A stretch of DNA of 64,000 bases from Kiritimatiellaceae bacterium. Lineage in GTDB: Bacteria; Verrucomicrobiota; Kiritimatiellia; Kiritimatiellales; Tichowtungiaceae. Shown here piece after piece: positions 34,897 through 43,339 of the stretch. The stretch lies in the NCBI GenBank assembly GCA_013141415.1, contig JABFQY010000001.1:62001-126000 (forward strand). Reading direction: 5' to 3'. The first letter of the stretch is position 1. The number at the start of each line of letters is the position of its first letter. A model generated the notes under the pieces. That model saw only the letters and a program-made list of their open reading frames with translations, had not been told where the DNA came from and did no database searches. The position numbers and the translations under genes are program-made.

Positions 34897-34953
34897 TCCG
34901 CGACCTCGGGTCGCGGCTACAACGCTGTAGCCGCCCGCCGTGAGGGCGGACTA
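34894..34953 (+). repeat. GTAGCC-type double-hairpin repeat after hisC
   Basis: Outer ends TAGTCCGC and GCGGACTA, inner arms GGCTAC and GTAGCC around AACGCT. Each half also folds alone (CCGCGACC/GGTCGCGG and CCGCC/GGCGG types). It provides the hisC stop codon and ends 2 nt before the next SD. Confidence 0.75.
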
Positions 34954-41623: not shown

Positions 41624-41685
41624 GTAGACGCGACGCCCTCGTCGCGTTTTATTTTGTTAGAATGCGACGAGGGCGTCGCATCTAC
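41624..41685 (+). repeat. GTAGACGCGACG-type palindrome, intergenic copy
   Basis: A 62-nt inverted repeat. The left arm (41624-41646) starts GTAGACGCGACGCCC and the right arm ends GGGCGTCGCATCTAC with one change. The AT-rich loop is about 17 nt. The same arms occur twice inside tilS (62450-62513, 62918-62979). It ends 2 nt before the stop codon of the SGNH gene, where it could also act as a transcription or RNA-stability hairpin. Confidence 0.88.
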
Positions 41686-42460: not shown

Positions 42461-43339
42461 ATGGCAGGGAATTTTGATCCGGCAAAGCATCATCGGCGGT
42501 CAATCCGGTTAAAAGGGCATGATTATGCCGGCGGCGGTCTGTATTTCGTCACGTTGTGCGCGCATCGGGATGCGGGAAATATTTTCGCCGCGGAAATAAT
42601 CCGGGAAATGGTCGCGCGGGAATGGGAATCGGCCGCCGGGAGCACCCACGAGGGGTGCCCGTACGCCATCATGCCCGATCATTTTCATGCATTGATTCGC
42701 ATTCCCGCAGGGGCTGGCCCCGTGCCTGCCCGCTCCCTTGGCGATGTGATTGGCGCATTTAAATCGCGGGTGGTGCATGAAATGATTCAATTGGTGCGCG
42801 CGGGATTATACCCGCCGTTTCCGGGAAAAATCTGGCACCGGAACTATTATGAACGAATCGTCCGCACGCCCGAAGCCGCCGAAAATATCCGGCGATATAT
42901 CCGCATGAATCCGTGGAAGTGCATTCAGAACTTCGGCAACGGATTACGCGGTATGGGTAATCCAGCGCTTTGGAACGCGGAGAAGATCGGCGTTCTTTGC
43001 TCACGCAATGCGCCGCCTGTCGCACACATTCCCGAGGCAGAAGTTTATCTGGGCGGATTCCACTCGCCGCCGGAACAGAAAATTTTAGAAGCGCTGCTCA
43101 TGCGCCGTGCCAGAATCATCTATTGTCCTGCATGGGGGCTGGATGGCGCGATGCATCCTGACGTATTGGCCGCATTGGAAGAGAATCGAATGCTGATTCT
43201 CGAAATGACGGATCGTTCCGGCGATTTGATTGCCGCTGAACAGCGCAACCGCTTTGTCATTCAGAACGCGGATAAACTTTGGACGCCGTATGTCACCAAC
43301 GGCGGTATGCTCGACCGGCTGTTGAAGGAAATGAACTAA
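42461..43339 (+). CDS. REP-associated tyrosine transposase (RAYT, Y1 type) with extra C-terminal domain
   Basis: 292 residues. The N-terminal 165 form an IS200-like HUH nuclease: HHRRSIRLKGHDYAGGGLYFVTLCAHR, the HUH pair in MPDHFHALIR (H74, H76), and WHRNYYERIVR with catalytic Tyr130 (or 129). This class (TnpA_REP) nicks REP-type palindromes. Residues from about 175 on are not part of the usual RAYT: IGVLCSRNAPP, LGGFHSPPEQKILEALL, ARIIYCPAWGL, ENRMLIL, RNRFVI and NGGML. The pattern resembles a Rossmann DprA/LOG-type nucleotide-binding domain. No flanking terminal inverted repeats or target duplication were found, so it looks like a domesticated single-copy gene rather than an IS. Confidence 0.85.
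   Translation: MAGNFDPAKHHRRSIRLKGHDYAGGGLYFVTLCAHRDAGNIFAAEIIREMVAREWESAAGSTHEGCPYAIMPDHFHALIRIPAGAGPVPARSLGDVIGAFKSRVVHEMIQLVRAGLYPPFPGKIWHRNYYERIVRTPEAAENIRRYIRMNPWKCIQNFGNGLRGMGNPALWNAEKIGVLCSRNAPPVAHIPEAEVYLGGFHSPPEQKILEALLMRRARIIYCPAWGLDGAMHPDVLAALEENRMLILEMTDRSGDLIAAEQRNRFVIQNADKLWTPYVTNGGMLDRLLKEMN

Follow-up and report, generated by a model that had tools for sequence, protein, structure and literature searches.

A RAYT nuclease fused to a DprA-type domain, with palindromes inside the genes of its family

In a 64-kb stretch of Kiritimatiellaceae DNA, called here the window and meaning the whole stretch that was analysed, we found an intact open reading frame that joins a RAYT-type HUH nuclease and a DprA-type Rossmann domain in one chain of two domains (Table 1). 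RAYTs are bacterial enzymes that cut single-stranded DNA at small hairpins, and DprA is a protein of DNA uptake. We hold this architecture and its fold to be close to certain, and an accident of assembly or reading frame is excluded as the source of the join because many independent relatives have the same two-domain layout. The fusion appears to be real and also undescribed, within the incomplete literature coverage of a full-text search in which no paper contained both "RAYT" and "DprA"; the tail domains described in a 2018 survey of the nuclease family are different ones (PMC6006769). Regarding its function, we propose with a probability of about 0.5 for the mechanism as a whole that the HUH half would nick and rejoin hairpins of single-stranded DNA (ssDNA), with the DprA half gripping the ssDNA. 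The protein touches the question of how RAYTs move REPs and with which host factors, and a DprA-type domain in a RAYT chain points to a concrete partner pathway, namely ssDNA capture and RecA mediation.

Table 1. Features of the RAYT-DprA gene and its surroundings (positions are those of the window)
Feature	Position	Strand	Basis
Inverted pair of GTAGACG palindromes	41624..41685	.	Same family as the repeats around the PriA-nested RAYT
RAYT-DprA fusion gene, 292 aa	42461..43339	+	ORF; full-length relatives; dN/dS 0.10-0.36
RAYT / TnpA-REP HUH nuclease domain, residues 22-153	42524..42919	+	NF047646; fold matches
HUH-core segment differing from the syntenic counterpart G003/L014	42570..42829	+	Flanks of about 80% DNA identity
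Decayed GTAG-type palindrome in the gene, GTACGGGCACCCCTCGTGGGTGCTC, read in frame immediately ahead of the HUH strand	42640..42664	-	DNA hairpin; intact GTAGGGGC forms there in relatives
HUH motif DHFH, residues 73-76	42677..42688	+	Conserved in all aligned relatives except one truncated member
Second decayed palindrome in the gene, GCAGGGGCTGGCCCCGTGCCTGCCC, immediately following the HUH motif	42707..42731	+	Hairpin weak, z -1.0
Catalytic Tyr motif YIRMNP, residues 146-151 (Y146)	42896..42913	+	Y146, N150, P151 invariant; class-2 rule Y---NP (PMC6006769)
DprA-type Rossmann domain, residues 154-292	42920..43336	+	AF2 model; fold matches; L070 profile match
Arg182, equivalent of the Arg in the DprA G-S-R motif (part of the ssDNA pocket)	43004..43006	+	Alignment to SpDprA 3uqz; pocket residues from PMC4489622
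GFHSPPE block, residues 199-205, domain-family signature	43055..43075	+	G199, H201, S202, E205 invariant; also in L070
RNR block, residues 262-264, equivalent of the DprA RNR motif	43244..43252	+	R262, N263 invariant; alignment to SpDprA

The two halves of the protein

The first-pass annotation had read the N-terminus as a RAYT-type Y1 HUH nuclease, and this was borne out by the NCBIfam model NF047646 (REP_Tyr_transpos), which matches residues 21-153 at E 2.3e-14 with 53.5 bits, below its curated cut-off of 80, and by the PDB fold matches of residues 23-139 to IS200/RAYT transposases (2vju, Z 11.5; TnpA-REP 4er8, Z 11.2), with which Foldseek agrees; the Pfam Y1_Tnp match is borderline. Of the catalytic residues named in that annotation, H74 and H76 stand, but Y130 has to be replaced: the nucleophile according to the class-2 RAYT rule "Y---NP" (PMC6006769) is Y146, and Y130 is part of the strand that follows the conserved W. 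The YxxxNP residues are invariant in the 15 sequences of our alignment of RAYT-DprA relatives (A1), where invariant positions extend through the C-terminal half as well. The protein belongs to RAYT class 2 by its HUH and Y---NP motifs, its Y1 transposase/TnpA-REP fold and its low copy number, which is not that of an IS: the genome holds one copy, the flanks of which were checked for GTAG hairpins only as possible ends. The gene is flanked by polA and by an SGNH-type hydrolase gene. The dN/dS ratios, 0.18-0.36 for the RAYT half and 0.10-0.25 for the DprA half, imprecise as several dS values exceed 1, indicate that both halves are under purifying selection.

For the C-terminus a separate Rossmann domain described as "DprA/LOG-like" had been suggested, with structure prediction and a fold search as the way to check it. 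The AF2 model, built on the family alignment, is confident for the greater part of residues 165-292, and the best PDB match of residues 154-292 is ShosA (8zva, Z 15.3 over 138 residues, 2.3 A), besides SpDprA of S. pneumoniae (3uqz, Z 12.6) and HpDprA of H. pylori (4ljr, Z 12.5); weaker matches are a molybdenum-cofactor-binding protein (Z 9.1), YpsA (7.5) and LOG (5zbk, 6.3), and Foldseek agrees with this search. The separate domain and its DprA character were thus confirmed, but not the LOG part of the description, given the weaker fold match and the absence from the sequence of PGGxGTxxE, the motif of the LOG family. A normal RAYT tail, which the first-pass annotation had named as an outcome that would refute its reading, and an HTH tail were also considered and are ruled out by the fold search together with the published subclass table (PMC6006769). 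NucS_C and DNA_processg_A gave sub-threshold matches only as families for the tail, PDB profile matches to designed TIM barrels and a dipeptidase were taken as chance, and the viral fold library gave no match at E <= 0.001.

The sequence link to DprA is an indirect one. No NCBIfam or Pfam dprA model matches the window protein over its cut-off; the profile of the C-terminal domain finds L070, a DprA-like protein that stands alone, at E 7.4e-21, and this protein in turn matches TIGR00732 dprA at 1.6e-9, so that, as judged by profile comparison, the domain is kin to DprA through a stand-alone intermediate. The fold and this link through L070 together identify the C-terminal part as a domain of the DprA superfamily fused to a RAYT, and not as DprA proper. 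The host genome also encodes an ordinary DprA of 372 aa, to which hhalign aligned the fused domain over 12 columns only, a result that we do not count against the kinship because a single sequence is a poor template. Regarding the ssDNA pocket, which in HpDprA is formed by R52, K137 and R143 (PMC4489622), R182 and R262 of the fusion align with two of the positions and the Lys position is not basic, in an alignment that is remote (E 0.12).

Since the nearest solved fold is that of ShosA, the C-terminal domain could instead be a sensing or regulatory module, as in ShosA and PsyrA, which holds the HUH nuclease inactive in the absence of a nucleotide or DNA signal. This agrees with the PADLOC models, in which L070 has a stronger match to PsyrA (7.9e-15) than to ShosA (4.7e-5) and the divergent fusion L068 also has a PsyrA match (7e-4). 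However, PADLOC gave no match for the window protein, neither of its two neighbours is a toxin gene, and fold likeness alone shows no function, and we consider this reading unlikely.

The fusion is spread in a patchy way, the domain profile having matches in 69 of the 388 genomes of the phylum and strong ones (E below 1e-40) in 22, and in the genus of the window four genomes carry RAYT-DprA and two do not. Nearly all the relatives that matched both halves in the contig scan come from Kiritimatiellota/Verrucomicrobiota metagenome-assembled genomes, plus three Pontiellaceae assemblies, and the translated matches include close relatives, divergent RAYT-DprA fusions (L068, L072, L075 and L077) and stand-alone DprA-like proteins. 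The latter (L069:1243-2079 and L070:1090-2058) have the GFHSP block and a PsyrA match, and are a possible source of the fused domain. A tree of the RAYT cores places the fusions apart from the RAYT-only proteins with 2 changes, its bootstrap being not settled and the L016 core being shortened at a false motif, and a single origin of the fusion would also be compatible with it.

Palindromes inside the gene and palindromes of other RAYTs

In the relatives, the RAYT-DprA genes carry GTAGGGGC-type palindromes in frame, located on either side of the HUH motif, ahead of the conserved W and within the DprA half. Depending on the orientation, they encode VGAGLVPAP or, the other way round, GTHEGCPY or GRHKACPY. 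The same loops hold different palindromes in different genomes. The density of perfect GTAG hairpins is 0.42 per kb within 32 genes vs 0.046 per kb in their flanks, an approximately nine-fold difference in which the in-gene figure comes from only 13 perfect hairpins, with some loci being perhaps the same gene from two collections; codon-shuffled genes contained no perfect GTAG hairpin. RAYT subclass 2.4 is already known for REP sequences inside the RAYT gene (PMC6006769), a feature found here in the relatives, the window gene having two decayed palindromes only. These in-gene palindromes provide a natural archive of sequences that may be recognised by the enzyme, and GTAGGGGC is plausibly the palindrome family that RAYT-DprA uses. 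A divergent fusion (L068:784-1950) has other in-frame repeats, with GRRDGQPIQ and GRCASPHI units, which suggests other palindrome families inside such genes.

In the genome of the window a pattern search found 0 perfect GTAGGGGC palindromes, and the present-day substrate is therefore not seen there. The better of the two palindromes left in the gene, GTACGGGCACCCCTCGTGGGTGCTC, folds on its own strand into a DNA hairpin of -7.1 kcal/mol (z -2.5), and we infer that the cognate palindromes of this genome have decayed to these two relics. Matches to GTAGGGGC have a median of 3.5 in 22 genomes with the gene vs 1 in 20 without it, with reversed-pattern controls giving similar numbers in many genomes; this difference is weak and confounded by kinship, and for this reason we claim no link between the gene and GTAGGGGC abundance.

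The scarcity of GTAGGGGC palindromes outside the gene in most genomes, down to no perfect copy in this one, is what would be expected of a selfish RAYT lineage in which the DprA domain serves for dimerisation or stability only and the in-gene palindromes are tolerated as passive insertions in loops. DprA Rossmann domains do dimerise (PMC4489622), and REPs are tolerated inside unrelated genes (PMC3733652). On the other hand, strong conservation of the DprA signature residues and a dN/dS well under 1 speak against it, and the in-gene excess of palindromes suggests more than passive landing, which makes this explanation unlikely in our view.

The recognition core of the gene may have a history of its own. 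Its counterpart in another genome (L014, that is, G003:C7) has the same SGNH-type hydrolase and polA neighbours and a DNA identity of about 82% on the left side, ending at 42569, and of about 80% on the right side, beginning at 42830; the 260 bp between, which contain the HUH core, are unalignable to it apart from 26 bp; the HUH core of L014 resembles that of G079 (L057) instead. In these three sequences this looks like an exchange of the recognition core, likely by recombination. It is conceivable, and we rate it below both the sensing and the selfish explanations, that the protein cuts an ssDNA hairpin and its DprA half recruits or loads RecA beside the cut, with GTAG palindromes, those of its own gene included, being moved or exchanged by recombination, and that the gene would thereby diversify its own DNA-recognition core.

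Other palindromes of the window belong elsewhere. The window holds 10 GTAG-tagged hairpins in two main families, GTAGACG and GTAGCC, of which the genome has 47 and 20 perfect copies, respectively, and 0 of the reversed control pattern, these counts being lower bounds as they come from pattern searches for perfect matches. Both families are real repeats far above chance, and the at least four families of the first-pass annotation reduce to two main ones. A lone hairpin resembling the GTAGCC family, GTAGCCGCGACCCGAGGTCGCGG, lies at 34898-34920 of the window.

It had also been proposed that the protein and the palindromes of the window form one REPtron-like system, which the GTAGACG pair of Table 1, about 780 bp upstream of the RAYT-DprA gene, might seem to favour. 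Nevertheless, another gene lies between them, no GTAG hairpin is found within about 770 bp on either side of RAYT-DprA, and GTAGACG repeats flank another RAYT of the same genome (G000:C3:506357-507072), situated inside priA, and do so likewise in G029 and G124, so that the pair is not the partner of RAYT-DprA. GTAGACG numbers do not track the presence of the gene either, with few copies (0-6) in the other RAYT-DprA genomes tested and 3 in G029, of the same genus and without RAYT-DprA, two of them around its own PriA-nested RAYT. The GTAGCC family has a copy directly 5' of a third RAYT (L007). The hairpin repeats of these two families in the window belong to other RAYT genes, RAYT-DprA shows neither the flanking REPs nor the abundant cognate REPs of a REPtron, and the proposed pairing is very improbable. 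An abundance of palindromes independent of the gene was also the outcome that the first-pass annotation had set against its own proposal, and it holds for the palindromes named there.

RAYTs nested in host genes

The GTAGACG-flanked RAYT lies in frame in the linker of PriA (L078:939-3833, minus strand, in G000:C3), and the priA start codon opens one chain of 965 aa with PriA 3'BD, Y1_Tnp, helicase and PriA_C domains, for which the AF2 model was poor (pLDDT 64) and was left unused. Complete PriA-RAYT chains of 949-1002 aa are present in at least ten further genomes of the order (L095-L101, L103-L105). The PriA of G079 has 741 aa, the linker of G003 is without an insert, and in G157 the same priA site holds an inverted REP pair only, with a left boundary (CTGAAT^GTAGACG) identical to that of the filled site; empty or REP-only priA sites are found in L109, L112 and L117. 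Filled, REP-only and empty in different relatives, this site presents before-and-after states of REP/RAYT insertion at one place.

A second RAYT of this genome, with flanking GTAGGACAGGC palindromes, is in frame inside xseA, the gene of the exonuclease VII large subunit (L079:2018-3937, G000:C3), and a third nested one is in frame inside a B12-binding radical SAM ORF (DUF4080; L080:3787-5934, minus strand, G000:C7). RAYT matches in open frames of 1370-1504 aa in three other genomes (G112:C208, G204:C131 and G240:C46) are perhaps further RAYTs nested in other genes, going by these matches. Intragenic REPs in replication and repair genes are already known (PMC3733652). A brief literature search found no report of a whole RAYT nested in frame in a gene, and the priA case is possibly more surprising than the RAYT-DprA finding itself.

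Proposed mechanism and comparison with known systems

In the mechanism that we propose for RAYT-DprA, the HUH half would recognise GTAG-tagged hairpins where DNA is single-stranded, as at replication forks, and would nick and rejoin them via Y146. The DprA half would hold the flanking ssDNA without sequence preference, in a pocket keeping Arg182 and Arg262, and may add dimerisation or a contact with RecA. The nick/rejoin step is taken from the RAYT family, and the holding step from the DprA fold and the two retained residues. With such palindromes inside it, the RAYT-DprA gene would itself be acted on by its product, and this would account for its length-variable loops. The mechanism is consistent with the RAYT fold and motifs, the DprA fold and L070 link, two of the three pocket positions, the purifying selection, the in-gene palindrome density and the different palindromes at the same loops; against it stand the third pocket position, which is Lys in HpDprA and not basic in RAYT-DprA, the lack of a perfect GTAGGGGC copy in this genome, and the weakness of the gene-to-palindrome link across genomes.

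Among the known systems, RAYT subclass 2.4 of Quentin, equal to Bertels group 4, shares with RAYT-DprA the HUH/Y1 core with Y---NP and the REP palindromes inside the RAYT gene (PMC6006769), and the RRSIRLKGYDY start and the KIWHRNYYE block are also present in RAYT-only matches from Pedobacter (L029-L031, 193-205 aa). In contrast, the published subclass motifs are NH[IFV]H and YIxNNP, vs DHFH and YIRMNP in RAYT-DprA, this family has palindromes ahead of the HUH strand, ahead of the W and within the tail as well, and no tail domain is listed for subclass 2.4 (PMC6006769).

With HpDprA and SpDprA the fusion shares the Rossmann fold over residues 154-292 (Z 12-13), the GN..L start and the GSR-like and RNR blocks, but GFHSPPE replaces the SGxAxGID block of DprA, the domain is fused to a HUH nuclease, and the AF2 model has no SAM or winged-helix (DML1) domain, so that the protein differs from DprA proper in lacking these extra domains as well as in staying below the family-model cut-off. 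ShosA and PsyrA, DprA-like proteins of phage-defence toxin-antitoxin systems, are similar in having the closest fold, in the case of ShosA, and in the PsyrA match of the stand-alone L070, and different in that RAYT-DprA has no partner toxin beside it and is not matched by PADLOC. Finally, intragenic REPs and Rickettsia palindromic elements are likewise translated in frame inside genes, often those of DNA replication and repair (PMC3733652), whereas here the palindromes are concentrated in the RAYT gene itself and, in the priA case, a whole RAYT sits between two REPs inside priA.
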